Virus record (IMG/VR): IMGVR_UViG_3300020183_000008
Coordinates: 1-64,000 of that record
Length of the DNA: 64,000 nucleotides
DNA from: a virus
Strand: one strand, 5' to 3'
The notes under the pieces were generated by a model, which had not been told where the DNA came from, did not search any database, and saw only the letters and a list, made by a program, of their open reading frames with translations. Made by a program: the position numbers and the translations under genes. Positions 11,901 to 56,364 of the stretch are shown piece after piece (the first letter of the stretch is position 1; each line of letters opens with the position of its first letter).

Positions 11901-14900
11901 ACCCCTGTGGATCCCTGAACCCCCGTGCTTCCTTGAACCCCAGTAGATCCCTGAACACCTGTCGCGCCTTGAACACCAGTGAAGCCTTGGACTCCTGTGG
12001 TGCCTTGAACTCCTGTAACACCTTGCACTCCTGTCGTGCCTTGCACACCGGTTGCACCTTGAACTCCTGTCGAACCTTGGACACCGGTTGCACCTTGGAC
12101 TCCTGTCGTGCCTTGGACTCCGGTTGCACCTTGAACGCCTGTGGTACCTTGAACACCTGTCTGACCTTGGACTCCAGTAGTACCTTGGACTCCTGTTGCC
12201 CCTTGGACACCAGTATCTCCTTGCACACCCCGAACACCGGTCTGACCTTGGACTCCAGTAGCACCTTGGACACCAGTTGAGCCTTGAACTCCAGTTAAAC
12301 CAACCGGACCTTGAATACCTATTTGACCAGTAGCACCTTGGACACCAGTTGCACCTTGAATACCGGTTGTGCCTTGCACTCCTGTGGTGCCTTGTACTCC
12401 CGTTGTTCCCTGAATACCCGTTGCACCTTGCACTCCAGTAGACCCTTGAACTCCGGTTGTGCCTTGCACTCCTGTTTCACCTTGCACACCTGTCGTGCCT
12501 TGTACTCCCGTTGTTCCCTGAATACCCGTTGCACCTTGCACTCCAGTAGACCCTTGAACTCCGGTTGTGCCTTGCACTCCTGTTTCACCTTGCACACCTG
12601 TCGTGCCTTGGACACCCGTTGCACCTTGCACTCCAGTAGACCCTTGAACACCCGTAGTGCCTTGGACTCCGGTAGCTCCTTGGACTCCAGTTGCACCTTG
12701 AACACCAGTCGTACCTTGGACTCCTGTGGTGCCTTGAACACCAGTTACTCCCTGAACTCCCGTAGCTCCCTGAACACCTGTCGTACCTTGGACTCCTGTA
12801 GCACCCTGAACACCTGTCGCGCCTTGAACACCAGTGAAGCCTTGGACTCCTGTGGTGCCTTGAACACCTGTAGTGCCTTGAACACCAGTTTCACCTTGGA
12901 CACCTGTTGTGCCTTGAACACCTGTAGTGCCTTGAACCCCAGTTTGACCTTGAACTCCGGTGGAGCCTTGCACACCTGTCGTGCCTTGAACACCGGTTGT
13001 ACCCTGAACACCGGTTGTACCCTGAACTCCTGTTACACCTTGTACACCAGTCGAACCCTGGACTCCTGTGGATCCTTGGACTCCAGTGTTACCTTGAACA
13101 CCAGTAGCTCCTTGGACTCCGGTTACACCTTGGACTCCCGTAGTGCCTTGGACACCCGTTGCACCTTGGACTCCGGTATTTCCTTGAACACCTGTGAATC
13201 CTTGCACACCAGTTAAACCAACAGGACCTTGAGTACCTATCTGACCGGTGACTCCTTGAACTCCTGTAGATCCTTGGACTCCGGTAGTACCCTGAACACC
13301 CTGAACACCGGTTGCACCTTGGACTCCCGTTGTGCCCTGTACTCCAGTAGCTCCTTGAACACCTGTGGTGCCTTGAATTCCGGTGGCACCCTGAACTCCG
13401 GTTACGCCTTGGACACCCGTCTCACCTTGAACTCCGGTGGTGCCTTGGACACCCGTGGTTCCTTGGACACCAGTTACACCTTGGACTCCAGTTTGTCCTT
13501 GAACACCCGTAGCACCCTCAACTCCGGTTGCACCTTGGACTCCAGTGGCACCCTGTACACCGGTGGTGCCTTGGACTCCAGTAGTTCCTTGGACTCCCGT
13601 TGTTCCCTGAATACCTGTGTTACCTTGGACTCCCGTCGTGCCTTGAATCCCGGTGGAGCCTTCAACTCCTGTCGCTCCTTGGACACCTGTTGTGCCTTGG
13701 ACTCCAGTTGTGCCTTGTACCCCAGTTTGACCTTGAACACCAGTTGAGCCTTGGACACCTGTAGTTCCCTGAACACCTGTCGCGCCTTGGACTCCTGTAT
13801 TTCCTTGAACACCTGTAGAACCTTGAACACCAGTCTGACCTTGGACACCTGTAGCTCCTTGAACACCAGTGGTTCCCTGAACACCGGTAGTTCCCTGAAC
13901 ACCAGTCTGACCTTGAACACCAGTAGTTCCATGAACACCAGTAGTTCCCTGAACACCAGTTACTCCTTGAAATCCAGTCTGACCTTGAACACCAGTAGCA
14001 CCTTGCACTCCTGTCGTGCCTTGGACTCCAGTTACGCCTTGGACTCCTGTCGTGCCTTGGACTCCCGTGGTGCCTTGCACTCCTGTCGTGCCTTGGACTC
14101 CAGTTACGCCTTGGACTCCTGTCGTGCCTTGGACTCCTGTCTGACCTTGGACACCAGTTACACCTTGTACACCGGTTACACCCTGTACTCCTGTGTTTCC
14201 TTGAACCCCAGTAGATCCCTGAACACCTGTCGCGCCTTGAACACCAGTGGCTCCCTGAATTCCCGTAGAGCCTTGAACTCCAGTTTCTCCTTGAATTCCT
14301 TGAACTCCGGTAGATCCTTGGACTCCTGTCTGACCCTGAATACCTGCCACACCCTGAACACCAGTAGCACCTTGATCACCTGCTGGAGCAAAGGTTACAA
14401 TCAACTGTTGACCATCTACGAACAAATCGGATGCATCGACATATTCAACCGTAACAAGACGCCAGTTTTCCCCACCGAAGCCGCTTCCATTTTCAACGCT
14501 AATAACTTTGAATTTTACGTAAACACTTTGATCATCACCTAGGTGGAAAATCAAATAACCCTTGGTGGAATTAGTTGCACTATCCCAACTATCGATCCAC
14601 GCCGCGACCGAAGGATCAAGAGATCCTTGGTTCGTAAAGGCATCGATATAAACGTAGCCTGGAGTCATCGAACTTGGGTCATCCGATGAAAATTTCACAT
14701 AAGTTCCACCAGGACGTGTTGCACTCGTATCTGAAGAGAATATGTAATATTCACTATACCCGCTGATAGGTCCTCGGTTACCGGTGACACCTTGGACACC
14801 GGTTGCACCTTGAATACCGGTCATTCCTTGAACACCGGTCATTCCTTGAACACCCTGAACACCGGTCGTACCTTGGACACCGGTTGCACCTTGCACTCCA

Positions 14901-17900
14901 GTCTCACCTTGTACACCGGTATCACCTTGTACACCTTGAACACCGGTCGTACCTTGGACACCGGTTGCACCTTGCACTCCAGTCTCACCTTGGACACCAG
15001 TGGTTCCTTGAACACCAGTAGCTCCCTGGACTCCTGTGGCTCCATCTACACCTGTAGCCCCTTGAACTCCCGTAGTTCCTTGGACTCCTGTAGCCCCCTG
15101 AACACCTGTCGTGCCTTGGACTCCTGTGGCACCCTGAACACCAGTGGCTCCTTGGACTCCCGTGGTTCCTTGGACACCTGTCGTTCCTTGGACACCTGTG
15201 GCACCATCTACACCAAAAACACCGGTTGCACCTTGAACTCCTGTAGCACCTTGCACACCCGTTGCACCCTGAACACCGGTTGTACCCTGAACTCCTGTCG
15301 TGCCTTGGACTCCCGTGGTTCCTTGGACACCTGTCGTTCCTTGGACCCCTGTGGATCCCTGAACCCCCGTGCTTCCTTGAACCCCAGTAGATCCCTGAAC
15401 ACCTGTGGTGCCTTGAACACCAGTTTCACCTTGGACACCGGTTGCACCTTGGACTCCTGTCGTGCCTTGAACACCTGTCTGACCTTGGACTCCAGTGGCT
15501 CCCTGAACTCCTGTTTCACCTTGAACACCTGTTTCACCTTGAACACCAGTTCTACCTTGGATGCCTGTCTGACCTTGGACACCTGTCGTGCCTTGCACAC
15601 CGGTTGCACCTTGGACTCCTGTCGTGCCTTGCACACCGGTTGCACCTTGGACTCCTGTCGTGCCTTGCACACCGGTTGCACCTTGAACTCCTGTCGAACC
15701 TTGCACACCGGTCTGACCTTGGACTCCAGTGGAGCCTTGAACACCAGTCTGACCTTGGACTCCTGTGGTGCCTTGAACACCAGTCTGACCTTGGACTCCA
15801 GTGGCTCCTTGGACACCTGTCTGTCCTTGGACTCCAGTGGCTCCTTGCACTCCCGTTGAACCTTGCACTCCCGTTGAACCTTGGACTCCTGTGGAACCTT
15901 GCACTCCCGTTGAACCTTGGACTCCCGTAGCCCCTTGGACTCCCGTTGAACCTTGGACTCCCGTAGCCCCTTGGACTCCTGTGGAACCTTGCACTCCCGT
16001 TGAACCTTGGACTCCTTGGACTCCAGTAGATCCTTGGACTCCCGTTTGACCTTGAACACCGGTCTGACCTTGGACTCCAGTAGCACCTTGGACACCAGTT
16101 GAGCCTTGAACTCCGGTTAAACCAACCGGACCTTGAATACCTATTTGACCAGTAGCACCTTGGACACCAGTAGCACCTTGGACACCAGTAGTGCCCTGTA
16201 CCCCTTGGACTCCTGTGGAACCTTGGACTCCTGTTGTGCCTTGGACTCCTGTGGCTCCCTGAACGCCTGTCGAACCTTGGACTCCGGTGGCTCCTTGGAC
16301 TCCGGTGGCTCCTTGGACTCCTGTAGTCCCTTGAACTCCAGTAGCACCTTGAACACCAGTTGATCCTTGAACTCCAGTAGCACCTTGAACACCAGTTGAT
16401 CCTTGAACACCAGTTGATCCTTGGACTCCCGTGGTGCCTTGAACACCGGTAGCTCCTTGGACCCCTGTAGTGCCTTGAACACCAGTTGATCCTTGGACCC
16501 CTGTAGTGCCTTGAACACCTGTAGCTCCTTGGACCCCTGTAGTGCCCTGTACACCTGTGGCACCTTGGACTCCTGTTTCACCTTGGACTCCTGTAGTTCC
16601 TTGAACTCCAGTCGATCCTTGGACACCGGTTCTACCTTGTACACCTGTAGCACCTTGGACACCCGTAGCGCCTTGGACTCCTGTCTGACCTTGGACACCA
16701 GTTACACCTTGGACACCTGTGGTTCCTTGGACACCTGTAGTGCCTTGCACTCCTGTGGTTCCTTGGACTCCAGTGGTGCCTTGAACGCCCGTGGTACCTT
16801 GGACTCCTTGAACCCCAGTGGCTCCTTGGACACCTGTTACACCTTGCACTCCCGTTGTGCCTTGGACTCCTGTTGCACCTTGAACGCCCGTGGTGCCTTG
16901 AACACCTGTATTTCCTTGAACACCTGTATTTCCTTGGACTCCTGTCGTGCCTTGGACTCCTGTCGTGCCTTGGACTCCTGTCGTGCCTTGCACTCCTGTC
17001 GTGCCTTGGACTCCAGTTACGCCTTGGACTCCTGTCTGACCTTGGACACCAGTTACACCTTGTACACCGGTTACACCCTGTACTCCTGTGTTTCCTTGAA
17101 CCCCAGTAGATCCCTGAACACCTGTCGCGCCTTGAACACCAGTGAAGCCTTGGACTCCTGTAGCACCCTGAACTCCGGTTGTTCCTTGAACACCAGTCTG
17201 ACCTTGGACACCTGTGTTACCTTGGACTCCAGTGGTGCCTTGAACACCAGTAGTTCCATGAACCCCAGTGGTGCCTTGAACACCGGTCTGACCTTGGACA
17301 CCAGTAGCACCTTGGACACCAGTTGAGCCTTGAACTCCGGTTAAACCAACCGGACCTTGAATACCTATTTGACCAGTAGCACCTTGGACACCAGTAGCAC
17401 CTTGGACACCAGTAGTGCCCTGTACACCTGTCGTGCCTTGGACTCCTGTCGTGCCTTGGACTCCTGTGGAACCTTGGACACCAGTTACACCTTGGACTCC
17501 TGTGGATCCCTGAACACCAGTGGCTCCTTGGACTCCTGTCGTGCCTTGGACTCCTGTGGAACCTTGGACACCAGTTACACCTTGGACTCCTGTGGATCCC
17601 TGAACACCAGTGGCTCCTTGGACACCAGTTGAGCCTTGAACACCAGTAGTTCCCTGAACCCCTGTCGCTCCCTGGACACCTGTGGCTCCTTGGACTCCAG
17701 TTGTTCCCTGAACTCCGGTAGTTCCTTGGACTCCCGTAGCTCCTTGGACTCCGGTTGTGCCTTGCACTCCTGTGGTTCCCTGCACCCCGGTTCTGCCTTG
17801 AACTCCAGTTTCACCTTGAACACCTGTCTGACCCTGTACTCCTGTGGCTCCCTGAACGCCTGTCGAACCTTGGACTCCGGTGGCTCCTTGGACTCCGGTG

Positions 17901-19780
17901 GCTCCTTGGACTCCTGTAGTCCCTTGAACTCCAGTAGCACCTTGAACACCAGTTGATCCTTGAACTCCAGTAGCACCTTGAACACCAGTTGATCCTTGAA
18001 CACCAGTTGATCCTTGGACTCCCGTGGTGCCTTGAACACCTGTTACACCTTGCACTCCCGTAGCACCTTGAACGCCCGTGGTGCCTTGAACACCTGTATT
18101 TCCTTGGACTCCTGTATTTCCTTGGACTCCTGTCGCGCCTTGGACTCCTGTCGCGCCTTGGACTCCTGTCGCGCCTTGAACCCCAGTGCTTCCTTGCACT
18201 CCCGTCTGACCCTGAACCCCAGTGCTTCCTTGCACTCCTGTAGCTCCTTGGACTCCTGTAGCTCCTTGGACTCCTGTGGCTCCTTGGACACCTGTCTGTC
18301 CTTGGACTCCCGTAGTGCCTTGGACACCTGTAGTGCCTTGCACTCCTGTGGTTCCTTGGACTCCAGTGGTGCCTTGAACGCCCGTGGTACCTTGGACTCC
18401 CGTAGTTCCCTGAACACCTGTCGTGCCTTGGACTCCTGTGGCACCCTGAACACCAGTGGCTCCTTGGACTCCCGTAGTTCCCTGAACACCTGTCGTGCCT
18501 TGGACTCCTGTAGAACCTTGTACACCAGTCGCACCTTGGACACCTGTAGCGCCTTGAACTCCTGTCGTGCCTTGGACTCCTGTAGAACCTTGTACACCTG
18601 TAGCGCCTTGGACACCAGTAGCACCTTGTACACCAGTCACACCGTACTGACCAGTTTGACCTTGAGCACCTTGAAGACCATCAGATCCGGTTACACCTTG
18701 AACACCAGTTTCACCTTGAACACCTGTTACACCTTGAACACCAGTTAAACCGACAATACCTGTGATACCTTGAACACCTGTTTGTCCGTAGATACCTGTA
18801 ATACCTTGAACACCTGTTTCACCAATAGCACCTTGCAAACCGGTTTCACCCGCAACACCGGTTTGACCTTGGACACCTGTAAATCCTGAAGGACCTTGTA
18901 CACCTTGTACACCTGTTGATCCTTGAACACCCGTGCGACCTTGAATACCCGTTGATCCTTGAACACCACCAACACCAGTAGCACCTTGAACACCAGTGAA
19001 ACCTGGACCTTGCAGACCTGTAGCACCCTGAACACCAGTGTTTCCGAGGGGACCTTGAACACCTGTCTGCCCAGCAACACCTTGAACACCTGTCTGCCCA
19101 GCGACCCCTGTGGCACCTTGGACACCAGTTTCACCTTGGACACCTGTAGATCCTTGAACTCCCTGAACTCCGGTAGCTCCTTGGACACCAGTGTCGCCTT
19201 GAACTCCGGTTGCACCCTGAACGCCGGTGGTTCCTTGAACACCTTGAACACCTGTGGTTCCTTGAACCCCAGTTCTTCCTTGGACACCTGTTACACCCTG
19301 AACTCCAGTTTGACCTTGAACACCTTGAACACCGGTACCACCTTGAAGACCTTGAGATCCTTGGATACCTTGCAATCCTTGGATACCGGTGTTGCCTTGA
19401 ACACCTTGGACTCCCGTGGTTCCCTGAACACCTGTGCTACCTTGAACACCCGTGGTTCCTGAAATACCTGTACTACCTTGAACACCAGTGAAACCTGGAC
19501 CTTGCAGACCTGTAGCACCTTGTGAGCCGATACCTGTCGTACCTTGCACACCAGTTACACCTTGCAGACCTCTAATACCCGTGGTGCCTTGTTGTGATTG
19601 AATCGTCGCAAACGAAGGCTTCCACTGTGAATCAGAAATGTCGAAGTAGTAAAACGCGTTAATGTTTTTAACGTAGCGTACTTCGTTTTCTTGAGGTGAG
19701 ACAACGCTAGATAAATCAGCGATGTTGTTTACAGCATAGGTGATTGCATAGGCTAATTGTTGGTAAAACGGAGTGCTCAT
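1..19780 (-). CDS. Giant collagen-like phage fibre protein (C-terminus beyond the window)
   Basis: A single frame opens at the ATG at 19780, with AGGA eight bases upstream. I found no in-frame stop down to base 1, giving at least 6593 codons. I checked the non-repeat segments codon by codon and scanned the repeats. Residues 1-64 are a non-collagenous head with several aromatic residues. Gly-Xaa-Yaa triplets begin at residue 65 and follow the hexapeptide G-x-T-G-V-Q, where x is V, T, A, S, N, E, Q or F. Three related globular domains of about 130 residues interrupt the collagen at about residues 1672-1800, 3103-3231 and 4486-4616. Proline is almost absent, and Thr or Gln occupies the Y position. 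Collagen triplets in phage proteins are known to form trimeric rods, so a long virion fibre is the likely role (inference). Frames on the opposite strand are by-products of the repeat. The C-terminus is not visible. Confidence 0.9.
5933..6330 (-). other. Interspersed globular domain C of the collagen protein
   Basis: The third copy, from S-G-Y-S-E-Y-Y-Y to S-F-A-P-A-G-D-M. Inside the domain it is closest to copy B, sharing the [12 protein letters not shown] core. Read in the collagen frame it contains no stop codon. Confidence 0.75.
6331..10084 (-). repeat. Collagen block 3 (18-bp coding tandem repeat)
   Basis: About 1250 residues of G-x-T-G-V-Q collagen between domains B and C. Near 6700-6850 there is a run of near-identical units with x = Ala, which suggests recent local expansion. 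Confidence 0.9.
10088..10479 (-). other. Interspersed globular domain B of the collagen protein
   Basis: The second copy of the roughly 130-residue domain, from S-G-N-S-E-Y-Y to S-F-A-P-A-G-D. It keeps [16 protein letters not shown] and Y-V-D-A-S. It lies about 4.3 kb after domain A and 4.15 kb before domain C in the direction of translation. Confidence 0.75.
10480..14371 (-). repeat. Collagen block 2 (18-bp coding tandem repeat)
   Basis: About 1290 residues of G-x-T-G-V-Q collagen between domains A and B. Sub-blocks recur elsewhere in the gene. For example, 11647-11800 matches 7495-7648 with two mismatches, and a stretch near 13594-13675 matches one near 7702-7795. Confidence 0.9.
14381..14772 (-). 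other. Interspersed globular domain A of the collagen protein
   Basis: About 130 non-collagenous residues entered through G-N-R-G-P-I-S-G and left through F-A-P-A-G-D. The domain shares with the other two copies the motifs S-E-Y-Y, P-G-x-V/I-Y-I-D, W-x-[16 protein letters not shown] and Y-V-D-A-S. It resembles domains I associate with marine phage fibre proteins (from memory, not searched). It may help trimer registration or receptor binding (inference). Confidence 0.75.
14773..19588 (-). repeat. Collagen block 1 (18-bp coding tandem repeat)
   Basis: About 1600 residues of uninterrupted Gly-Xaa-Yaa with the 18-bp, six-residue period G-x-T-G-V-Q. Near its N-terminal end the pattern is less regular, including a G-I-G-S break around 19530 and the only G-P-G triplet I noticed, around 19495. 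The block ends at the first globular domain. Confidence 0.9.
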
Positions 19781-45922: not shown

Positions 45923-46216
45923 GTGTTGGTTTATACTTGTAAAAATAAAGATTGTAAAAAGTACCTGATTAACGGTGATGCACTTTGCAAAGTGATTTCC
46001 GAAAAAGGAGAGGCGTCTCTTGACTTAGAGACAGGTCTCTACACATCCAACGAAAATGAACCTATTTCAGGTCAGGTGCGATGTTTTCACTGTAACAAGC
46101 ACGCCTTGAAAAAAGAAATGTTGTCGCTCGACTGTGAAAAAAGCGAATTGCTGAGGGATCTAGATAACATAGAATCAGAAATTGATAATTTGATGAAGAT
46201 CATGGGGGGTGCATGA
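45923..46216 (+). CDS. Small protein with paired Cys motifs
   Basis: The protein has 97 residues and a GTG start directly after the shared -10. Two cysteine pairs (C6 and C11; C-F-H-C at about 54-57) suggest a zinc ribbon. The C-terminal 35 residues are a predicted coiled coil (L-L-R-D-L-D-N-I-E-S-E-I). It is the first gene of the DnaJ/radical SAM operon and overlaps DnaJ by four bases. Possibly an adapter or regulator; no family is recognised. Confidence 0.6.
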   Translation: MLVYTCKNKDCKKYLINGDALCKVISEKGEASLDLETGLYTSNENEPISGQVRCFHCNKHALKKEMLSLDCEKSELLRDLDNIESEIDNLMKIMGGA

Positions 46217-47073
46217 ACCCCTTCGAAATTCTAGGTTTATCCGATGATGTGACACTGGAGCAAATAAAAAAACGCTACAGACAACTGAGTCTGGAACATC
46301 ACCCCGACAGAGGGGGTGACATCGAAAAATTCAGATCAATCACGGATGCTTACTCTTTAATCAACAGTGAGCAAAACTTAAAAAATTACCGTTCTCGAAA
46401 AAATTCTATTTTTTCTTGGGACTCCGATCTTGAATCCTTTTTCGGTGACATGTTCAACGCAAAAAAACCACCTGCTCGCCGCACGATTTACACAGATGTT
46501 TACATTTCTTTCGAAGAATCTTTCACAGGATGCACCAAACATGTTTTTTATCAGGAAGTTAAAACTTGTCGAGCTTGCGGGGGTGTAGGGGCATCATCTT
46601 TTGATCCTCAAGGAAACGTAGTAAAAACATGCAACGATTGTTTAGGAGCCGGGTTTACTAACCAAACTCATCAAGCAGAGTTAAATATACCGCGCAGTGT
46701 CGCGGATGGTCATCAACTTGTAGCCGCTGATGATGTTGTAGCCACAATCCACATCGTTCCTCACGGGGACATGACCCGAAAAGGATTGGATGTGCTATCG
46801 ATGCTAAAGGTTTCTTTAAGAGATGTATTTAATGGAAGCAGGCTGCACCTTCAAACTTTGCATGGTGAAGTCGCATTTGACTTGCCACGGTGTCTCCAAC
46901 CTGACAAGATAATCAGATTAAAGAAAAAGGGATTTTTTGATGTGCGTCGGAACACCTACGGTGACCATTTGTTGACTATAAAACTTGTTATCCCTGAGTT
47001 TTCTGATGAAAATTGTGAAAAGATTGTGAGGTGCTTGGATGAAATCCAAACGAGAGAATCAAAAACTAGCTGA
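46213..47073 (+). CDS. dnaJ: DnaJ-like co-chaperone
   Basis: The protein has 286 residues. The J-domain at 1-60 has the essential H-P-D at 30-32, and a short linker leads to the client-binding part. Only two C-x2-C-x-G-x-G repeats (C119/C122 and C140/C143) are present instead of four, enough for one zinc site. The two C-terminal beta domains seem shortened. DnaJ recruits DnaK and stimulates its ATPase through H-P-D. It overlaps its neighbours and sits upstream of the radical SAM genes. Chaperoning of a large or modified phage protein is a reasonable inference. Confidence 0.85.
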   Translation: MNPFEILGLSDDVTLEQIKKRYRQLSLEHHPDRGGDIEKFRSITDAYSLINSEQNLKNYRSRKNSIFSWDSDLESFFGDMFNAKKPPARRTIYTDVYISFEESFTGCTKHVFYQEVKTCRACGGVGASSFDPQGNVVKTCNDCLGAGFTNQTHQAELNIPRSVADGHQLVAADDVVATIHIVPHGDMTRKGLDVLSMLKVSLRDVFNGSRLHLQTLHGEVAFDLPRCLQPDKIIRLKKKGFFDVRRNTYGDHLLTIKLVIPEFSDENCEKIVRCLDEIQTRESKTS

Positions 47074-47596
47074 AGAGCCTCTTTTCGTACAGTTCCTCAA
47101 TTCTAAAATCGACTACAACGCAGTGGATTCTTTTTTACTGCGGCTTGAATCAATATTCCCAGAACACGAAGACAAGAAGATTGTCAAGGAGCATCGTGAA
47201 TCTTTGAAGGATCATCATTTGGAAGGTTACAAACTTGTCCAAACAAAATTCAAGGATCACATCGATTACATTCTCTCGTACAAAAACTTCGATTCAGGAT
47301 TCTCATCATGGGCTAACTTTTATCTGTCTAGCTTGCGAGAAAACAAAAGCGAGGATAAAAAAGGTAACTTAGAACGCAGGGTAAGAATTGGAGACAAGAA
47401 CGGTGATTGGTTTTCAGGCATCTTGCTCTACAACTTTAGTCTTTTTTGCCGTTACTATGGAACAGATTTGATTCGCAGATGTGACTCGAAAGTGTATTTC
47501 GTTACTCGTTCGAAATGGGATAAATATTGTTCAGATGAATGCAAAAAAGCGAAGTCATGTAAATACTCAACATCTTCTGTTAAGGTAGAAACATGA
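47039..47596 (+). CDS. Hypothetical protein with a C-terminal zinc-finger-like motif
   Basis: The protein has 185 residues. The last 50 carry F-C-R-Y-Y-G, then R-R-C and Y-C-S-D-E-C-K-K-A, a spacing like CGNR-type zinc fingers. The N-terminal 130 residues are helical and charged. GAGG before the ATG supports the start, which lies 35 bases inside dnaJ. It overlaps the first radical SAM gene by four bases, so co-translation is likely. A DNA- or protein-binding adapter is possible. Confidence 0.6.
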   Translation: MKSKRENQKLAEEPLFVQFLNSKIDYNAVDSFLLRLESIFPEHEDKKIVKEHRESLKDHHLEGYKLVQTKFKDHIDYILSYKNFDSGFSSWANFYLSSLRENKSEDKKGNLERRVRIGDKNGDWFSGILLYNFSLFCRYYGTDLIRRCDSKVYFVTRSKWDKYCSDECKKAKSCKYSTSSVKVET

Positions 47597-48696
47597 AAGA
47601 ACTGATGATCTATCTAAAAACAACAGAAACCTGCCAATTAAATTGTAACCACTGTTTTACTAGCGGCTCAAAGGGTCGAAAGATATTCTTCGATCCAGAC
47701 AAGGTGATATCTTTTTTACAAAGATTAAACAAAACTTTCCCGTGCATTGAAAACGGAGGTACGATATCTTTTCACGGAGGTGAGCCTCTAATCGCACCTT
47801 TGGAAGATATCAAAAAAGTTTATCGAACTTGTAAAGATTTATGGAACGATCCAAAAAAACCACAATCCAAAGTCGCTTGGACTTTTCAGTCTAACCTTGT
47901 TTTTCCTTTGACGGATGAAAAGATAGAACTTATCGATGAAGTTACAGAGAAAAGACAATTTGGAACATCATGGGATTCAAAGATCCGTTTCCCAACGCTG
48001 AAAGCAGAACAGTTATGGGAAAAAAATGTTCGCACCCTTGTGGACAGAGGTTACCCTGTCACGGTGATGGTTTCTTTATCAAAACATGCGCTTGAAAAAG
48101 AACCAAAAGAAATCATACAAAAAATGATAGACCTAGGTATCAAATTTATAGCTTTTGAAAGAATAACAAACAACGGCAATGCAAAAATAAATGATGGATT
48201 GACCCCATCGAACAGAGATTTAGATGCCTACATGTTAAAAATGTGGGAACAAACACTCAAGTACAACTACCAAGAAAAAATCCACAACATTCTTTTAGAT
48301 GGTGTGGTCACATCTTTTTTAAACTCCGCTCACACAGGAGAAAGATGTCGAAACTGTGAGCAAAAAATATTTACCTTGAACGCTGATGGAACAATATCAG
48401 GATGTCCAAATTCAGCGGTAGAAAAGCCCTACGCTCAAATCGACTGGAAGATTTACGACATAATCTTTAGCAAAGGTCGGATGAAAGAAATCGCATGTGA
48501 AGCTGTGAGAAACCCGTTGTGCGCAACGTGCGAAGTAAGGGACATCTGTAACGGGGATTGTCATCAGCTCGCGTGGGAAGGTGATATTTGTGCAGCACCT
48601 AAAAGTCTGATGAAAAAAATAAAAACAAATTTACATTCAAACGATTATTATCATCAGTACGATGATTTGCAGAGATTTAAGGAGGCATCTTTATGA
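47593..48696 (+). CDS. Radical SAM/SPASM enzyme 1
   Basis: The protein has 367 residues. The radical SAM cluster motif C14-x3-C18-x2-C21 is at the N-terminus and G-G-E-P at 62-65 binds the SAM amino group. The C-terminal part has C252, C255, C271, C310, C313, C319, C323 and C333, enough for two auxiliary [4Fe-4S] clusters of the SPASM type. Radical SAM/SPASM enzymes generally modify peptides or protein side chains. It overlaps its neighbours by four bases and shares an operon with a Cys/His-tailed protein and three further radical SAM enzymes. Confidence 0.88.
   Translation: MKELMIYLKTTETCQLNCNHCFTSGSKGRKIFFDPDKVISFLQRLNKTFPCIENGGTISFHGGEPLIAPLEDIKKVYRTCKDLWNDPKKPQSKVAWTFQSNLVFPLTDEKIELIDEVTEKRQFGTSWDSKIRFPTLKAEQLWEKNVRTLVDRGYPVTVMVSLSKHALEKEPKEIIQKMIDLGIKFIAFERITNNGNAKINDGLTPSNRDLDAYMLKMWEQTLKYNYQEKIHNILLDGVVTSFLNSAHTGERCRNCEQKIFTLNADGTISGCPNSAVEKPYAQIDWKIYDIIFSKGRMKEIACEAVRNPLCATCEVRDICNGDCHQLAWEGDICAAPKSLMKKIKTNLHSNDYYHQYDDLQRFKEASL
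48678..48685 (+). promoter_or_regulatory. Strong ribosome binding site (TAAGGAGG)
   Basis: A near-perfect complement of the 16S rRNA 3' end seven bases before the ATG at 48693. It is stronger than other sites in this operon and suggests that this gene is made in larger amounts than the enzymes around it. Confidence 0.6.
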
Positions 48697-49469
48697 GCGA
48701 AGTAATTACAAAAAGAGTGAAAGCTCCTCTGAGTGTTGATGAAATGAAGGATGCTTTTCTTAATAAAGCCGACAGAGACGCAGGTAAAATCAAATATATC
48801 GTTGATTACGTAAACAGCACTATCAAAGGTGATATTCTCCTTCAATATCTATCAAACCTCGAAATTCAAGCGGATTTTGATTTTACAGGAACATCTAAGC
48901 AAGAGAGATTCGACTTTCTTTTGACTTACTTCAAGATGAAAACAATCATCAAGAATAAAGATCTTAATTATGCTGCGAGTGCAGTCGTACTTCGAAGTAA
49001 AGATTTTTCAGGTGAATTCCTGAAGCAAGACTTTCTGACCAATGAAGAGGTCGATGAATTTTATACTTTGCACAAAAATTTAGTGGATAAATGGTCTTTG
49101 ATTGTTGATTCAAGTCTATTGCTATTGATTAGAGTTTCATCACCTCAAACAAGTTTGGATGCATACGAAGATATTTTGGATCCAAATTACTGCGGTGTTA
49201 ATTTTGTCAATCTTTACAATATTTCAGGTTTCTTCAATATTTTTACATCACGCCCTGCAATAAGTGAATTGAAATGGTTCACACACCAGTTCGAAAATTT
49301 TGCTTTTAATAATCAACTCCTATTCAAAATAATCAGCGATTCTGATGAGAGTTTCTTATCATCTTTTAATATGATGCGAGCGACTTTAAATGAGACTTTC
49401 TCAAAAGAATTTTTAGACCAACTAGATCAAGAATTTGATAAATTAGGAAAAGAAAATGCTATTACCTAA
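48693..49469 (+). CDS. Hypothetical protein in the radical SAM operon
   Basis: A 258-residue, mostly helical protein without a recognised family. There are short Phe- and Asn-rich stretches, only one cysteine (in N-Y-C-G-V-N, about 167), and no signal peptide. Its ribosome binding site is the best in the operon. It stands between the first radical SAM gene and the zinc ribbon plus Cys/His-tail pair. It could be a substrate scaffold, leader-binding partner or virion protein (inference). Confidence 0.6.
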   Translation: MSEVITKRVKAPLSVDEMKDAFLNKADRDAGKIKYIVDYVNSTIKGDILLQYLSNLEIQADFDFTGTSKQERFDFLLTYFKMKTIIKNKDLNYAASAVVLRSKDFSGEFLKQDFLTNEEVDEFYTLHKNLVDKWSLIVDSSLLLLIRVSSPQTSLDAYEDILDPNYCGVNFVNLYNISGFFNIFTSRPAISELKWFTHQFENFAFNNQLLFKIISDSDESFLSSFNMMRATLNETFSKEFLDQLDQEFDKLGKENAIT

Positions 49470-49635
49470 AAAACAATATGACGATCGCCTTAAAATATGC
49501 GCATCTTGCCCAAATTACATAAAAGTGCTTGGCATTGGTAGGTGTAAAATTTGCGGTTGCATTATGGCTGTTAAGGCTAAAATATCAGCTACAAAATGCC
49601 CTATCGAAAAATGGGACAAAAAGGGAGAGATGTAA
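49456..49635 (+). CDS. Small zinc-ribbon protein (DUF6171-like)
   Basis: The protein has 59 residues. The motif C15-A-S-C18, then C30-K-I-C33-G-C35 and K-C-P-I-E-K-W at the end, is a pattern I recall from small proteins found in many tailed phages. Four Cys can bind one zinc. The ATG follows AGGAAAAG, overlaps the previous gene by 14 bases, and the stop shares one base with the next start. The function of the family is not known to me. Confidence 0.65.
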   Translation: MLLPKKQYDDRLKICASCPNYIKVLGIGRCKICGCIMAVKAKISATKCPIEKWDKKGEM

Positions 49636-50225
49636 TGGCTACAGTAGGTGCAACCATCACAAGAACTACAATGAAAGATGATGGTAATTCTATACCGAAT
49701 GATCGCAACCCTCGCGCAGTGTGGTTTAGAGAGTCGAATGGAGTTCCTGTCGCTAACCCCCAAGGTGCTTGGAACTATTTCACGCCTGCGACCAACACAG
49801 AAAGATGCGCAGTTTATTTAGGTTATAAAGTAGCTACTTATAGCGAGGCTAACTACGGAGCCGCACAATCCCTCATTACAGCATCCACGATTGTAACAAA
49901 TTTCAGAGAATTAGCTAAAAGATGCACACGGTTTCAATATTTACAACATGGCGCTCAAACCAGGTCTTGTACGACTCGTTTTGACATAAATTTCGGTAAC
50001 CGTATCATAGCTAGAGATGTAGAAAATGCTAGTTTGAATTCCCAGATAGATACAATCACAGGTCCGGCGACCGGATCTATTATTTCAGCATCAGCCTTGA
50101 ATGCTTTTGTGACAAACTTGAATAACAAAGCAGCGGAATCTCTAAATATACAAAATTACTGTGACCACACTTTTTGCCACTGCTCATGTCACTCTAGTTG
50201 TCACGCTAGTCGAGCTCGACGATAG
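49635..50225 (+). CDS. Cys/His-tailed protein, candidate substrate of the radical SAM enzymes
   Basis: 196 residues from the ATG at 49635, which follows AGGGAGAG. Residues 1-165 look like a soluble domain rich in Asn, Ala and Thr, with three scattered Cys (58, 97, 112). The C-terminus is a dense tail: C176, H178, C181, H182, C183, C185, H186, C189, H190, then an Arg-rich end (S-R-A-R-R). The segment T-G-S-I-I-S-A-S-A-L-N-A-F before it resembles sequences near the C-terminus of phage tail proteins (from memory). The gene is followed by three radical SAM genes. A substrate of a RiPP-like modification or a metal-binding virion tip is a hypothesis; neither is proven. Confidence 0.7.
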   Translation: MATVGATITRTTMKDDGNSIPNDRNPRAVWFRESNGVPVANPQGAWNYFTPATNTERCAVYLGYKVATYSEANYGAAQSLITASTIVTNFRELAKRCTRFQYLQHGAQTRSCTTRFDINFGNRIIARDVENASLNSQIDTITGPATGSIISASALNAFVTNLNNKAAESLNIQNYCDHTFCHCSCHSSCHASRARR

Positions 50226-50234
50226 GAATTTGTG

Positions 50235-51383
50235 ATGAGAAAACCTTCAATTCCCACAATAAAAGATGGGTCGAACAACTATTCGGATTTTCTCGAAGCA
50301 AAATATCAGAGTCCAGTTGATGAAAACTATATCAAAAATCTTTTGAAAAAAAAGATCCCTGATGAAGCTGAAATTGAAGTCAGTCTTTTTCAGATCTGTG
50401 GTTTGAAGTGCGCTTTTTGTTGGCAAGACCACGATGATGCAACGGGTTTAAACTCTATTGTTGATAAATTTGATCCCATCTCCGCATTCGTTCAAAAAAA
50501 CCCATCGAAAAAATTCAATGTCCCTTTGATGGGCGGTGAATTGTTCGAAGATTCCAGAACATCTCAGCATTATGAAGACTACTTTACGCTCATAACAAGG
50601 GTAGATGATTTTGCTAGATCTATTGGCAAAAGAATGAAATGGATTCTGGTATCCAACTTATCTTTCAAAAACGCACAACCGGTTTTAGATTTCACAAATC
50701 GCTTAACAGAAGCAAAAAGTGATTGGTGCCTCAGTAGTTCTTTAGACTTCCACGGTAGACCCGTCGCACATTCGATCGAGACTCTCTGGCATAAAAACAT
50801 CATGCTATTCGAAAATAAAATAGCAACAATCAACATGGTTCTAACAGGACCAACCATCCGACGCTTTTTAAATCATGAAACTGATAGATCCTATTTTGAT
50901 CATCTTTATAATTCAGGTTTTCCTCTATCTTTCGACTACTACACACCGGAATCAAATGCAGCGTTGTTGATCCCATCAGATGAAGAATTACTAAATTTCT
51001 TCATCGAAATAGCGGAAAAATACCCGAAAATGGAACCGATGAGTGACTGGTTGAATAATGAACATAACACCATGAGTTGCCTGAGTCTTAACAAACTCAC
51101 TATTTTACCTAACAATCGCATGGTTACTTGTCGACAGTTGGCTTACAAGCCTGAAGATTTCCAAAATAAAATCCACTACGAAAGTAACGCCAACATAATC
51201 GAATCTTTCATCACAAAAAAAGAATGCTTATCCTGCCCTTACTTCAGTAGATGCGGGTTTTCTTGTTTTGTTTTAGATGACCATGTATATTTTTCCAGAA
51301 AACAAAAACTCAAAGAGTGCCTTTACAAAATGATGTTCAGACATATAGAGGCGAAAAATGGATTTAATAATCAAACCAACTGA
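50235..51383 (+). CDS. Radical SAM/SPASM enzyme 2
   Basis: 382 residues from the ATG at 50235, with AGGA six bases before it; a GTG one codon earlier is also open. The cluster motif C55-x3-C59-x2-C62 lies unusually far from the N-terminus after a charged 50-residue extension, which could bind a leader peptide. G-G-E at 100-102 follows. Auxiliary cysteines are C282, C299, C331, C334, C340, C344 and C362. The gene directly follows the Cys/His-tailed protein and overlaps the next enzyme by 26 bases. Confidence 0.85.
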   Translation: MRKPSIPTIKDGSNNYSDFLEAKYQSPVDENYIKNLLKKKIPDEAEIEVSLFQICGLKCAFCWQDHDDATGLNSIVDKFDPISAFVQKNPSKKFNVPLMGGELFEDSRTSQHYEDYFTLITRVDDFARSIGKRMKWILVSNLSFKNAQPVLDFTNRLTEAKSDWCLSSSLDFHGRPVAHSIETLWHKNIMLFENKIATINMVLTGPTIRRFLNHETDRSYFDHLYNSGFPLSFDYYTPESNAALLIPSDEELLNFFIEIAEKYPKMEPMSDWLNNEHNTMSCLSLNKLTILPNNRMVTCRQLAYKPEDFQNKIHYESNANIIESFITKKECLSCPYFSRCGFSCFVLDDHVYFSRKQKLKECLYKMMFRHIEAKNGFNNQTN

Positions 51384-52413
51384 GGTTTGCAATTTCGCTT
51401 GCACTTTTTGCAGCTCGACAAAAATAGCAGATCGTAAAAATCAAGTTTTAGACTTAAATCTCATTTTTGATTTTCTCAAGAGATTCCCTCAAACCAACAC
51501 AATCATCGTGAACGGAGGGGATCCCTTAGTTATAAATCCAAGTTATTATTGGAAAATAATCGAATACCTTGACCAAAACGACCTTCCTGCAATTATTAGT
51601 TTTACGACAAACCTTTGGGATTTTTACAAAAAACCTGAAAAATGGCTAGATTTGTTTAGAAACTACAGACGGCTACAAGTCGCCACATCATTCAATTACG
51701 GTGATACCCGAAGAATTTCAAAAAACAGGGTTTTCACAGAAGATGATTTTTGGAAAATTAGTGACTTGATGAAAGAACTCGTTGGGTATCGACCTGGTTT
51801 CATTTCAGTCATCACTGAAGAAAACGAGGATACAGCGATTGATAATGTTCGACTCGCCAAAAAAATGGGTGTTGAGTGTAAACTAAATTACGCTATGGCT
51901 TCAGGTGCCCAAAACAAGCCTTTTTTACTTTCCAAAATTTATAAAATTTACCTTCAAATTTACAGGCAAGGTTTAGCACCTTGGGAATTCAATACCAAAC
52001 AAATGACTGCACGTTTGAAAGATGTCCCAACTGTATGCCCACTAAATAGAAATTGCGATTCAGGGATTCGATGCCTTCAACCGAACGGAGCGTACCATTC
52101 TTGCGGAGCGTTCGGAGATGACAATTTCGAAGACAACAAAAAATACGAGATCGATTTCAAGAAAGAAGTTTATGAAAAGCAATTTTTCTTACCGTTGAAA
52201 CAGGACTATACGATTCAAAGAATGAAAGACGAATGCCTCACTTGCCCCATGTTTAAGATATGTAACGGTTGCCATAAGACAATCAAGGACTACAAAAATC
52301 TAAATCTCGTGGAAGAGCATTGCTCTTTGATGAAAGAAATAGCACCTGAGATTATAGAAACTAAACTTTTTGCACCAGATATTGTTAAACAAATAGCTGA
52401 ATTACCATTATGA
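51358..52413 (+). CDS. Radical SAM/SPASM enzyme 3
   Basis: The protein has 351 residues. C11-x3-C15-x2-C18 is the radical SAM motif and G-G-D-P at 53-56 the SAM-binding loop. C227, C233, C239 and C249, then C293, C296, C302, C305 and C322 support auxiliary clusters. It lacks the N-terminal extension of enzyme 2. The gene overlaps enzyme 2 upstream by 26 bases and enzyme 4 downstream by four (ATGA), so the three should be made together, possibly as a complex. Confidence 0.85.
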   Translation: MDLIIKPTEVCNFACTFCSSTKIADRKNQVLDLNLIFDFLKRFPQTNTIIVNGGDPLVINPSYYWKIIEYLDQNDLPAIISFTTNLWDFYKKPEKWLDLFRNYRRLQVATSFNYGDTRRISKNRVFTEDDFWKISDLMKELVGYRPGFISVITEENEDTAIDNVRLAKKMGVECKLNYAMASGAQNKPFLLSKIYKIYLQIYRQGLAPWEFNTKQMTARLKDVPTVCPLNRNCDSGIRCLQPNGAYHSCGAFGDDNFEDNKKYEIDFKKEVYEKQFFLPLKQDYTIQRMKDECLTCPMFKICNGCHKTIKDYKNLNLVEEHCSLMKEIAPEIIETKLFAPDIVKQIAELPL

Positions 52414-53333
52414 ACATATCATTAAACCCTAGCTACCTTTGTAATTTGCGATGTGAATTCTGCTATCTAGGTGAAAAATTAGGTGACCCTAAGCGCATCG
52501 ACCTTCAGGTGTTGGATCAGAGACTCGCGGCTGTTAACGAAATTTCAAAAATCGAACAAATTGACCTGTACGGTGGTGAAATTCTTATACTACCCGATGA
52601 TTACTTGAGACAGCTTATGAATGTGATAAAAAATCACTATCAAGGGTCAATAAATTTAATAACAAATCTTACAAAAATGAAAAGATGGTTTATCGAGAGA
52701 GATGATATTGAATTATCAGTTTCTTTTGATTTCGAAGCTAGATCCGCTTTTCAAAATACTTTAAATAATTTGATGACACTCAAAAAGCCTGTGTCGATAT
52801 TGATGCTCGCATCACCTAAATTGATGAGTTTAGATTTTGAAGAAATGCTAAATATTCTAAATCGAATACCTTGCATCCAATCCGTAGAGATAAAGCCTTA
52901 CTCATCGAATCAATACAACCAACTCGAAACAAAATTCTCTGAATACGAAAGTTTTGTAAAGAAATTTGTTGTTGCTTTCGAAACAGAGAAACTCAAGCCT
53001 TTCTTAACGAACGTGCAGTATATCCAAGATTCCATCAGCCTTGAAAGAAATGCTTTTTCCGACAATCATATCTACATAACACCATCTGGAAAATTCGGTG
53101 TATTAGAATTCGATGATAAAGACCATGAATTTTTCTTAGAATTAGATTCTCTCGATGACTATTACGCTTGGGCAACAAAAGAAAAAATGAAAATCAAAAA
53201 CAATTATTTTTGTTCTGAATGCAAATGGCAAGGGCATTGCCTTACAGAGCACTACAGAGAAGTCAAAGATATTACCCATTCATGCAATGGATTCAAACAC
53301 CTGTTGGAGTGGTATGAAAATGCGGGAACATAA
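52410..53333 (+). CDS. Radical SAM enzyme 4 with shortened SPASM region
   Basis: The protein has 307 residues. C11-x3-C15-x2-C18 and G-G-E at 55-57 are intact. At the C-terminus only C268, C271, C277 and C292 remain, so it may carry one auxiliary cluster (Twitch-like) instead of two. It is the shortest of the four. It overlaps the next gene by 20 bases. Different cluster content within one operon suggests a division of labour between enzymes. Confidence 0.82.
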   Translation: MNISLNPSYLCNLRCEFCYLGEKLGDPKRIDLQVLDQRLAAVNEISKIEQIDLYGGEILILPDDYLRQLMNVIKNHYQGSINLITNLTKMKRWFIERDDIELSVSFDFEARSAFQNTLNNLMTLKKPVSILMLASPKLMSLDFEEMLNILNRIPCIQSVEIKPYSSNQYNQLETKFSEYESFVKKFVVAFETEKLKPFLTNVQYIQDSISLERNAFSDNHIYITPSGKFGVLEFDDKDHEFFLELDSLDDYYAWATKEKMKIKNNYFCSECKWQGHCLTEHYREVKDITHSCNGFKHLLEWYENAGT

Positions 53334-53853
53334 AATTAGACAAGCGTTGTATCACAAAATAGCAAATCTCGATGACATACTCGATGATGTAGAAAAGCTA
53401 GAGCCTGTCGTATATCGAGAGAATGAGTCCGACAGAGATACAGCCCTCACCATCATCAGATATTTCCGTGAGGAAATCAGAGAACTTATCTACCCAGCTA
53501 AACCGTTCGTAGTGGCTCTCGTTTACGCGTGTCTTTTAGAAAGACACTTTTGTGAGCCTTTTTATGAATCGATATCCGACCCTGATTTGCTACATGGAAA
53601 TGATAAATGGTTCAAACCGTATTGTGATGAAACCAAAGACATTTACGACCATGCAATTTTTCATCTAGGGGCTGAATTGGATTTCATCGTTAGTGATGAA
53701 TTACAATACATACCTTCACAAATCAGGTCGACTATTGAATATTTCAAAAAAGAATTTTTAATTGAAACTAACTACTTACCTGTGCTGCCGAATCCACCTT
53801 CACCTCTGTCCGACTCATCTAATTCAGACACAACGGTGAAATCTAAATCATAG
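53314..53853 (+). CDS. Hypothetical last protein of the radical SAM operon
   Basis: About 179 residues. The start at 53314 was chosen because GGAG lies five bases upstream and the ATG overlaps the radical SAM gene; a start 27 bases earlier is open. It is mostly helical (F-V-V-A-L-V-Y-A-C-L-L-E-R), with a Pro- and Ser-rich tail (P-N-P-P-S-P-L-S-D-S). The tail is encoded opposite the essential motif V of dUTPase; the genes overlap by 82 bases. No family is recognised. Confidence 0.55.
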   Translation: MKMREHKIRQALYHKIANLDDILDDVEKLEPVVYRENESDRDTALTIIRYFREEIRELIYPAKPFVVALVYACLLERHFCEPFYESISDPDLLHGNDKWFKPYCDETKDIYDHAIFHLGAELDFIVSDELQYIPSQIRSTIEYFKKEFLIETNYLPVLPNPPSPLSDSSNSDTTVKSKS

Positions 53854-54235: not shown

Positions 54236-54841
54236 ATGCTAAACGATTTTTTCCGTAAAGGCTTTTACACAAATTGTTTAGAAAAAACACATTGTGATGA
54301 AATGCTACACATAGTCCAGTCCATAAATTTTATAGAAAGCCTAGATTACAGAGATGTTGGTTACAAACCACCTCTTATTGCTGAATGGGATGATATCGAT
54401 GATCCCATCGTGTCTGCTCATAACTGCCAAGAAAACTTGAAAAAGTATTGGTTAAAATTCAAAGAATACCTAAAACCTTTAGAAAATATAGCGGGTAGAT
54501 TCGACTCCGGTTCTGTAATTGTCAATAACTTCCCAAAAGGTCACGGTATGAATTGGCATTCAGACACGGTTGACACAGCGTTTGTGCAAATGCTCATATA
54601 TTTGTCAAAAGATTATTTTGACAAAGATGATGGGGGTTATTTGCAAATAGGTGATAGTTTTATCCTACCTAATCATGCTACGATGGTCATTATGAACAAT
54701 ATCTCACCTACAATGTTACATAGGGTAGAGCCGCTCATCACAGAAAAAGAGCGATTGACCGTTGTCTTTCGATACGGGTACATGAACAACACCCTTACAA
54801 AAAAAAGGCTTCTCACCATGAAAGGTGAAATCCGTGATTGA
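54236..54841 (+). CDS. 2-oxoglutarate/Fe(II) oxygenase (prolyl-4-hydroxylase-like)
   Basis: The protein has 201 residues. The iron ligands are H108-x-D110 in G-M-N-W-H-S-D and H162 in T-M-L-H-R-V. R173 in E-K-E-R-L-T-V-V-F-R-Y is the likely 2-oxoglutarate anchor, and the spacing fits the P4H-like fold. Such enzymes hydroxylate proline or other side chains. The sequence G-H-G-M-N-W-H-S-D is typical. It is the first gene of a three-gene operon and is followed by a paralogue without the metal ligands. The substrate is unknown; collagen-like or other virion proteins are candidates. Confidence 0.85.
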   Translation: MLNDFFRKGFYTNCLEKTHCDEMLHIVQSINFIESLDYRDVGYKPPLIAEWDDIDDPIVSAHNCQENLKKYWLKFKEYLKPLENIAGRFDSGSVIVNNFPKGHGMNWHSDTVDTAFVQMLIYLSKDYFDKDDGGYLQIGDSFILPNHATMVIMNNISPTMLHRVEPLITEKERLTVVFRYGYMNNTLTKKRLLTMKGEIRD

Positions 54842-55439
54842 ATTGGATCTCACAAGTTACTTTCACAAAGGCTACACCGTTACCGATTTAGGATCGGATG
54901 TCGATGGAATCCTAGCTGATATGAGAAATCAAAATTGGGTTGAAAAAGATGACCTTTTGAAACCGGATTGGGACAATCATTCACATCTCAATAAAGCTAC
55001 TGATTATCTTTATGATGCTGTCAGAGATTTCTCTCAGTCCGGCTATTATTCGTGGTTCACGAAAATTTACGGTGGATTTACGCAGCGAACCATCATGGCG
55101 AGAAAATGGACAGGTCAAAGCACGAACTGGTTCAACGAATCTCGTCTAGGGGCATTCAACGCAAATATTCTCTTTCTCGGTAAAGGTGACCCGACCGTAA
55201 GCCTTCAAATCGGACAAGCCGATTGTGATGAAAATGGTCGAATCGAAGGTGTGATTGAGAATGTTTCAACAATTCACCCTAAACACGGAACACTGGTTAC
55301 CTTGTACAACATAAACCCTTGCGTTGTTCGAAGATTTTTGAACGAAGAAAACACAGGGGAATGGTATACTCTGCATTTCTATCTTGGATTTATTGAAAAC
55401 ACTCTGTTGAGAGAGGTTTCAGGTGTTCCACTTATTTAA
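54834..55439 (+). CDS. Catalytically dead paralogue of the 2OG oxygenase
   Basis: 201 residues from the GTG at 54834, with AAAGGTG before it; the start overlaps the upstream stop by eight bases. It aligns end to end with the previous protein (F-H-K-G-Y near 10-14, N-W-F-N-E-S at 98-103, L-Q-I-G around 124-127, H-G-T-L-V-T-L-Y-N-I-N-P near 151-162). The iron ligands are lost: H108 and D110 correspond to F100 and E102, H162 to R166, and the 2-oxoglutarate Arg to Trp. It may pair with the active copy as a structural or substrate-binding subunit. Confidence 0.65.
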   Translation: MIELDLTSYFHKGYTVTDLGSDVDGILADMRNQNWVEKDDLLKPDWDNHSHLNKATDYLYDAVRDFSQSGYYSWFTKIYGGFTQRTIMARKWTGQSTNWFNESRLGAFNANILFLGKGDPTVSLQIGQADCDENGRIEGVIENVSTIHPKHGTLVTLYNINPCVVRRFLNEENTGEWYTLHFYLGFIENTLLREVSGVPLI

Positions 55440-56364
55440 AAATACCTATCTCGACATTCAGGGTACATCCAATCCGACCGGTTTTAAGGCACTCTCAACT
55501 GATAATTTCACGATCAAAGATGTAGCTGCTTTAAAAAGTAACGAAAAAATAATTTATTCTGTACCGAAATTTACTTTCACAAAAATTGTGATCGAATACA
55601 TTAAAGAATTGTTCCCTAGTGCATACCCACCGTTGATCATGGAAATTTACGGGATTGTTATGGCGAGAATGACCTATCAGCTCGCCTACCTCACGGATAA
55701 TCAAACAAGAAACACTTATATTGATTGTAATCTTCCATCGGATTCAATAAAAGTTCTGTTGGAAATAACAAAATATAAAGGTTTATTTGAAGGTGATTTC
55801 AAAAGACATGTTGGTATAGAATGGTTACTTTGTGATTATTTCAATGATGGGATTTATTCAGATGAATTTCAAAAAAGATTTCGAGAACTTTTGGTAAAAA
55901 ATATTGTTTACTCGGTTCAAGAGATAAAACATGAAATGTTGTATAAAGTTTTTAATCTTCCGAAAATGTACTTGAACTATAACAACGTAGAAGAATTGTT
56001 TTCAAAAGATATCGGAGTCCAATTCTTATTCGACCCTAGCCTAAACAACGCGACTCACCTTATGACTCGATATAAGATCGAAGACATAGCGGATTTGTTT
56101 CATACATTTACCAAAATGTATAACAAGGGGTACGACAAAGCCAAATACCAAGAAATGACTCTTTTAAGTCTTTTCCTACTCAAAGCGATCTCTTGTTTAA
56201 AATCAGGGAATTGCGATGCGATGATGAAAGAAGAAATACAAAGAGATTTCTCTATTATTTTTGGACATCATCGATTCATGAGAAAAATCAATTGTCTTTT
56301 GATAGATTGGATTTACCAACAAAAAAGGCAAAAAAATAAAGAACTTGAAGTATTAATTCTTTAA
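55423..56364 (+). CDS. Hypothetical protein after the oxygenase pair
   Basis: The protein has 313 residues and a GTG start six bases after GAGAGG, overlapping the paralogue gene by 17 bases. It is mostly helical and rich in Lys, Tyr and Phe, with no signal peptide, metal motif or recognised family. The co-operonic position suggests a role with the oxygenases. The 3' end overlaps the convergent acetyltransferase gene by 12 bases. Confidence 0.6.
   Translation: MFHLFKNTYLDIQGTSNPTGFKALSTDNFTIKDVAALKSNEKIIYSVPKFTFTKIVIEYIKELFPSAYPPLIMEIYGIVMARMTYQLAYLTDNQTRNTYIDCNLPSDSIKVLLEITKYKGLFEGDFKRHVGIEWLLCDYFNDGIYSDEFQKRFRELLVKNIVYSVQEIKHEMLYKVFNLPKMYLNYNNVEELFSKDIGVQFLFDPSLNNATHLMTRYKIEDIADLFHTFTKMYNKGYDKAKYQEMTLLSLFLLKAISCLKSGNCDAMMKEEIQRDFSIIFGHHRFMRKINCLLIDWIYQQKRQKNKELEVLIL

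Follow-up and report, generated by a model that had tools for sequence, protein, structure and literature searches.

The closest described system by motif to the locus reported here is the His-Xaa-Ser (Hxs) system, in which the target, HxsA, carries His-x-Ser repeats and is encoded beside several radical S-adenosylmethionine (SAM) enzymes (HxsB and HxsC). Among ribosomally synthesised and post-translationally modified peptides (RiPPs), the Cys-repeat families (ranthipeptides/SCIFF with CteB, Cxxx-repeat and FibroRumin) place a Cys at every fourth residue and a SPASM-type maturase beside the target. Anaerobic sulfatase-maturating enzymes, which form formylglycine, are radical SAM/SPASM enzymes that act on a Cys or Ser of a larger protein. 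Many radical SAM genes within one phage have also been reported, as in the Campylobacter phages CP220 and CPt10; CP220 contains eleven (PMC2853527) and DT01 six (PMC8541153), read as metabolism or DNA repair, and groups of such genes in FLC6, SURPRISE13 and RP31 were read as metabolism or left unexplained. Here we describe a cassette of four radical SAM genes (rSAM1 to rSAM4) and a 196-residue protein with a Cys/His-rich C-terminal tail (referred to here as the tail protein), found within positions 1 to 64,000 of the 155,270-bp IMG/VR virus record IMGVR_UViG_3300020183_000008; this 64,000-nucleotide stretch is referred to as the window. We estimate a probability of roughly 0.6 that the cassette is RiPP-like and that its enzymes modify the C-terminal end of a protein associated with fibres or the baseplate, a reading inferred from sequence comparison and gene context.

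The tail protein of the window terminates in CDHTFCHCSCHSSCHASRARR. Across relatives, the tail consists of 2 to 5 copies of a C-H-x-S unit followed by an R-x-R-R end, and these units, the Arg end and the phage/fibre context distinguish it from Hxs; no tail protein matches the HxsA model, and the enzymes score 24.6 bits against an HxsC cut-off of 267.9. Unlike the Cys-repeat RiPPs, the tail protein has a long body that is predicted to fold, is accompanied by several enzymes and sometimes has a tail with almost no Cys. Searches for ranthipeptide, Cxxx and FibroRumin membership gave matches at best at chance level (best E value of 0.0092 in 2 of 78 members for FibroRumin, 0.049 in one member for Cxxx). 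The alignment of rSAM3 with an anaerobic sulfatase-maturating enzyme spans almost the whole protein, with an E value of only 2.6e-5, but the cassette is without a sulfatase and the tail is without the sulfatase motif. Our data suggest that the cassette works like a radical SAM RiPP system yet falls outside the described target families that we tested. The sequence-only reading of the window knew of no described phage system like it. Searches of open-access papers found no account of the tail, nor of a virion protein modified by radical SAM enzymes, nor of a Bdellovibrionota cassette (most subscription papers and preprints lay outside this search); the wealth of radical SAM genes in one phage, on the other hand, had been noted before, in the reports on CP220 and DT01. 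We know of no virion with a radical SAM modification, and a role in host-attachment fibres has not previously been assigned to these enzymes.

We found that the tail and the enzymes occur together in both directions. A pattern scan of IMG/VR viral DNA for CHxxCHxxCHxxRxRR returned at least 120 stretches, and in 114 of the 120 listed the motif lies at the extreme C-terminus of an open reading frame (ORF). For 108 of the 114, the locus itself contains radical SAM genes; the remaining six have four or more radical SAM matches each in the whole record. Tails in viral records lacking the enzymes, which the sequence-only reading had named as one observation that would count against it, were not found for the 114 C-terminal motifs among the matches listed. 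By contrast, relatives of rSAM1 and rSAM3 are rare, being limited to 7 of the 50,697 phage records, those with rSAM3 being Sinorhizobium phage Phosso, Agrobacterium phage Atu_ph07 (two records), Burkholderia phages FLC6, FLC8 and SURPRISE13, and Pseudomonas phage DT01. Given this rarity, the association of tail and enzymes is far beyond chance. In Phosso, Atu_ph07, SURPRISE13 and DT01, an otherwise divergent protein adjoining rSAM1 has the same type of end (DYCHTSCHASCHSSRSRR, DFCHSSCHASCHNSRSRR, VCHSSCHTSCHGSRGRR and ICHTSCHTSCHSARGRR, respectively).

The reverse search, the comparison of gene sets that had been proposed for this locus, began from the enzymes. Eighty loci were collected via rSAM3, and 35 of these have full flanks (full loci; gene frequencies among them are given in Table 1). 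All 35 contain a tail, which is of the standard type in 34 and a variant, CHYSCFTSSCHFSRGRR, in L130. A cupin/JmjC-type protein is encoded in 26 of the 35, and the most frequent gene order is cupin, rSAM1, tail, g258, rSAM2, rSAM3, rSAM4, g188, with g258 and g188 denoting two partner genes. The tail gene usually follows rSAM1 directly and is on the same strand as rSAM3 in 64 of 64 cases. This two-way association, seen in phages and on bacterial chromosomes alike, bears on a rival reading in which the enzymes synthesise a small molecule or a metabolic product and the adjoining tail protein is a structural protein with no connection to them. The authors on CP220 proposed host metabolism at low oxygen and those on DT01 DNA repair or metabolism (PMC2853527, PMC8541153), and some cassette loci also contain oxygenases or dihydrofolate-reductase-like genes. 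We regard a metabolic product as improbable given the association itself and the much stronger conservation of the tail than of the body. Furthermore, CP220 resembles this family only remotely: we considered it as a second example of the cassette and rejected it, since its enzymes barely match, their neighbours differ (e.g., nucleotide-sugar transferases) and no such tail occurs in the 100 kb scanned.

The tail is the conserved part of its protein. Mean identity is 76% in the tail and 26% in the body among loci derived from the enzymes, which are free of motif bias, and conservation of the Ser at position four of the repeat comes close to that of Cys and His. TGC/TGT, CAC/CAT and Arg codons vary freely at invariant tail positions, and our data indicate that the tail is selected as protein. 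In the closest relative of the window, L126, it ends in CHCSCHSSCHSSCHSSCHSSRARR. A plain similarity search for relatives of the tail protein returned no close ones because the body diverges; relatives were recovered via the motif and the enzymes instead. The family phrog_35144 recognises 74 of the 78 aligned tail proteins, and the protein of the window over its tail only. Structure prediction from the 78 sequences gave a mean predicted local distance difference test score (pLDDT) of 82 and a predicted template modelling score (pTM) of 0.76, with most of the body confident and the tail not. The predicted structure has no fold match in the PDB, and its significant matches in a viral structure library are phage proteins, including a 296-residue protein of Atu_ph07. 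Two tails encoded on bacterial chromosomes depart from the standard form, YCHSNHCSHSNHGSRGRR and WCHSSHSSHSSHSSRGRR, the latter with a single Cys. These variants show that Cys beyond the first is dispensable; the most deeply shared element is His-x-Ser together with an Arg end. The proposal that the enzymes act on a Cys/His tail is supported by the two-way association, but Cys is not the invariant unit. Loci of a variant form (L006, L030, L038, L039, L043, L059, L066, L070, L073, L091-L093, L095 and L103) encode two tandem short tail proteins of about 125-145 residues, and enzymes of a further, fifth class (rSAM5) are present there in several copies.

We found that the Arg end varies with enzyme content. 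Six loci that form one clade (support 100/100) contain rSAM1 and rSAM3 only, as judged from their whole records, and their tails end in CHGSI or CHGSL with no RxRR; RxRR is missing exactly where rSAM2 and rSAM4 are missing. This hints that rSAM2 or rSAM4 may act on the Arg end, which we treat as a lead rather than proof. The same observations bear on whether the tail instead binds metal in unmodified form (Zn, Fe, Cu or a CxxxCH haem-like site), at the tip of a spike or fibre, with the enzymes modifying another part of the structure such as the fibre or the body. Cys and His alternate in the tail, metal ions are established at phage spike tips, and g258, g188 or the fibre could also be substrates. 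We nevertheless consider this unlikely, given that tails with a single Cys exist, that Ser, which metal binding does not require, is conserved almost to the level of Cys and His, and that the Arg end tracks enzyme content.

The four radical SAM genes of the window are intact and lie where the sequence-only reading had placed them, and the C-x3-C-x2-C and G-G-E/D loops are present in all four: CQLNCNHC and HGGEP in rSAM1, CGLKCAFC and MGGEL in rSAM2, CNFACTFC and NGGDP in rSAM3, and CNLRCEFC and YGGEI in rSAM4. All four match the phage radical SAM family phrog_1802 (E values of 4e-56, 1e-32, 2e-50 and 1e-36 for rSAM1 to rSAM4) and, with CxxxCxxC, belong to the superfamily. SPASM-type C-terminal cysteines, once claimed for the whole set, are visible in rSAM1, rSAM2 and rSAM3, while rSAM4 has a short CxxCx5C...C end alone. 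The SPASM model TIGR04085 gives 26.8, 16.4 and 19.7 bits for rSAM1, rSAM2 and rSAM3 against a curated cut-off of 27, and no match to rSAM4. Each class, rSAM5 included, forms its own split in the tree (support at least 0.995), and CxxxCxxC is kept in every sampled copy, which indicates that the set has been maintained as distinct activities. Among solved structures, the nearest sequences to rSAM1 include 5wgg, ChlB and an anaerobic sulfatase-maturating enzyme; 5wgg, the closest, is CteB, a likeness to the ranthipeptides/SCIFF. For rSAM3 the nearest is again an anaerobic sulfatase-maturating enzyme, with lysine 2,3-aminomutase aligning over the core only. The protein- or peptide-acting enzymes among these count in favour of the tail as substrate. 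rSAM4 resembles viperin-type cores; rSAM2 has no near sequence among those solved, and its very weak match to ryptide maturases (E=0.0045) is a curiosity only.

We next consider where the product might reside. Genes for virion structure or tail fibres precede the cassette in Atu_ph07, Phosso, SURPRISE13, L146, L152 and L199, and in several phages they stand immediately upstream of it. A location within a virion or fibre gene cluster was found in L146, L152, Phosso, SURPRISE13 and Atu_ph07 (coding sequences (CDS) 170-215), and is not uniform over all loci. The virion proteins of Atu_ph07 detected by mass spectrometry (MS) cluster in CDS 31-76, 170-215 and 284-329 (PMC6102473). The tail protein of this phage is gp170, and CDS numbers agree with locus tags for the lysozyme gp141 and the sheath gp140; as the boundary gene of cluster 170-215, we infer that gp170 is itself among the detected proteins. 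This context also bears on a tail that is cleaved off as a secreted or injected RiPP (toxin, signal or metallophore), which would make the cassette a phage-borne peptide natural-product pathway. A C-terminal repeat core beside maturases is RiPP-like, some loci contain two tandem tail genes, and the R-x-R-R end is basic. We find a released peptide hard to credit, given the virion-cluster and fibre context, the absence of a conserved protease, exporter or immunity gene in the cassette, and a body that is predicted with good confidence as a folded domain and not a short leader.

The cassette had been taken for a phage system, but it is not confined to phages. Scanning 257 Gb of bacterial and archaeal genomes for the motif yielded 88 matches, from which 80 loci were analysed. 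Most of these matches are fortuitous and internal to reading frames, and a minority are real tails accompanied by enzymes. Genuine C-terminal RxRR tails in this set have enzymes alongside, except at L252, where the contig ends. Bdellovibrionota carriers include Bacteriovorax MedPE-SWde, Halobacteriovoraceae SAT2788 (382-kb contig) and Bdellovibrionaceae UBA2316, and a further scan found rSAM3 in 8 of 95 family members, on contigs of up to 593 kb. Genes for SecA, pyruvate kinase and acyl-CoA dehydrogenase are among those flanking the cassette, and none of the Bdellovibrionota genomes searched yielded a tail-sheath gene. For loci with these flanks, we rejected the view that all bacterial matches stem from misbinned phage contigs; misbinning is still likely for some contigs of metagenome-assembled genomes, as G029 and G030 carry tail-sheath genes on the same contigs. 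In the rSAM3 tree, phage and bacterial copies interleave, a pattern consistent with repeated exchange of the cassette between phages and bacteria, although several bacterial branches are long and there may have been a single origin.

A common feature of the bacterial cassettes is a neighbouring Peptidase_S74 gene, the product of which is an autoproteolytic chaperone of phage tail fibres. It lies 3-10 kb from the cassette in 7 of the 7 Bdellovibrionota loci with enough contig, against a chance expectation of about 1-3% each. S74 fibres are established prey-recognition devices in Bdellovibrio, and the MAT fibres of Bdellovibrio bacteriovorus likewise involve S74 chaperone fibre proteins, in predatory bacteria and phages (PMC10769870). 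That account does not mention radical SAM, and one S74 protein adjoining a cassette differs in having a type IV pilin-like N-terminus. Beside the S74 gene, Bdellovibrionota encode a second conserved small protein that ends in (V/N)GRHWVKVK or close variants (L297 6151-6705, L298 10695-11324, L301 8547-9149, L310 19330-19884 and L312 10929-11528), possibly another fibre component.

We propose that the tail is, with good support from these comparisons, the substrate of the enzymes, and that the body, rather than a short leader, very probably provides recognition and anchoring. rSAM1 and rSAM3, which are present even in the minimal form, would act on the Cys-His-x-Ser repeats, and rSAM2 and/or rSAM4 plausibly on the Arg end. 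The product would plausibly be part of, or assemble onto, phage host-attachment fibres or the baseplate and, in Bdellovibrionota, fibre-like surface structures. As to the chemistry, we can only guess at an irreversible SPASM-type change (a thioether, a His/Ser C-C link, Cys/Ser oxidation or epimerisation) that perhaps toughens the exposed tail or provides a surface for binding. Several points weigh against this reading. The MS detection of gp170 is deduced from its place at a cluster boundary (CDS 170), and S74 occurs in only 11 of 28 phage records and was not found in the record of the window. The link of RxRR with rSAM2 and rSAM4 is confined to one clade and represents a single evolutionary event, hence its standing as a lead. 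The tail could also bind metal with no modification at all. Finally, the label RiPP-like holds in that maturase genes adjoin a conserved repeat core, but no short leader, RiPP recognition element (RRE), protease or exporter was recognised with Pfam, NCBIfam or PHROGs among window genes, g258 and the tail families, although g258 may contain a divergent RRE.

A broader proposal, possible but in our judgement somewhat short of an even chance, is that these proteins form an unrecognised class of radical SAM-modified attachment proteins, in which a component of the host-recognition fibre bears, at its C-terminal tip, a (Cys)-His-x-Ser/Arg tail that has been remodelled covalently, and in which phages and predatory bacteria have exchanged the cassette because each needs to hold on to bacterial surfaces. 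If tail modification is true, radical SAM enzymes would take part in the maturation of a structural protein of phages, and orphan radical SAM genes of large phages, so far filed under metabolism, would gain a function. It would also provide a simple C-terminal tag usable as marker and probe, and a set of enzymes with a natural repeat substrate, the tail sequence varying together with enzyme content. The cassettes beside S74 fibre genes in Bdellovibrionota would then point to a shared chemistry of bacterial capture.

In the window, neighbouring genes of the cassette and of the part upstream (45923-53853) share bases or are separated by no more than 9, all in one orientation, so a single transcript is likely (Table 1). 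The Cys-rich-ended protein stands directly before three of the enzymes, as had been described. DnaJ, the zinc-motif proteins and the 185-residue protein are likewise present in the operon, but they are common only to the window and L126, and we rejected DnaJ and the zinc proteins as core components. The consistent partner is g258, which is predicted with a pLDDT of 91 and a pTM of 0.85; in phage records, g258 and g188 were found by tblastn only where the enzymes occur. The rSAM2 ORF opens at a GTG at 50232, with an ATG at 50235, and comparison with relatives places the start of g188 at 53320 and not 53287.

Table 1. Features of the cassette and adjoining genes in the window (frequencies refer to the 35 full loci unless stated).
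Feature	Positions	Strand	Remarks
Upstream genes: 97-aa Cys-rich protein, DnaJ-like, 185-aa protein	45923..47596	+	Same operon; lineage-specific, shared with L126 only; not core
rSAM1	47593..48696	+	Radical SAM, SPASM-type C-terminus; core, 35/35
g258 (phrog_20767)	48693..49469	+	Universal partner, 35/35; confident predicted fold, no PDB match
59-aa Cys-rich (zinc-type) ORF	49456..49635	+	Lineage-specific; stop overlaps tail-gene start (TAATG)
Tail protein, 196 aa	49635..50225	+	Divergent body (predicted folded) and conserved C-terminal tail; presumed substrate
Tail-coding segment CDHTFCHCSCHSSCHASRARR	50160..50222	+	Presumed modified region
rSAM2	50235..51383	+	SPASM-like end; 31/35; missing where tail lacks RxRR
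rSAM3	51358..52413	+	SPASM-like end; core; nearest solved sequence anaerobic sulfatase-maturating enzyme
rSAM4	52410..53333	+	Short auxiliary-cluster end; 31/35; missing jointly with rSAM2
g188 (phrog_20737)	53320..53853	+	Partner, 30/35
2OG-Fe(II) oxygenase	54236..54841	+	Similar genes in 13/80 rSAM3 loci; optional accessory

Just downstream of the cassette, positions 54236-56364 encode the oxygenase and two uncharacterised proteins, and the 313-residue one of these two is the seed of family g351, which is present in 15 of the 35 full loci. At the other end of the window, a single reading frame of at least 6,593 residues occupies positions 2-19780 on the minus strand and runs off the start of the window. 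It consists of collagen-like G-x-T-G-V-Q-G repeats interrupted by a few recurrent globular inserts and is probably a giant collagen-like fibre gene; the many long TTG/GTG ORFs on both strands are a by-product of that frame.

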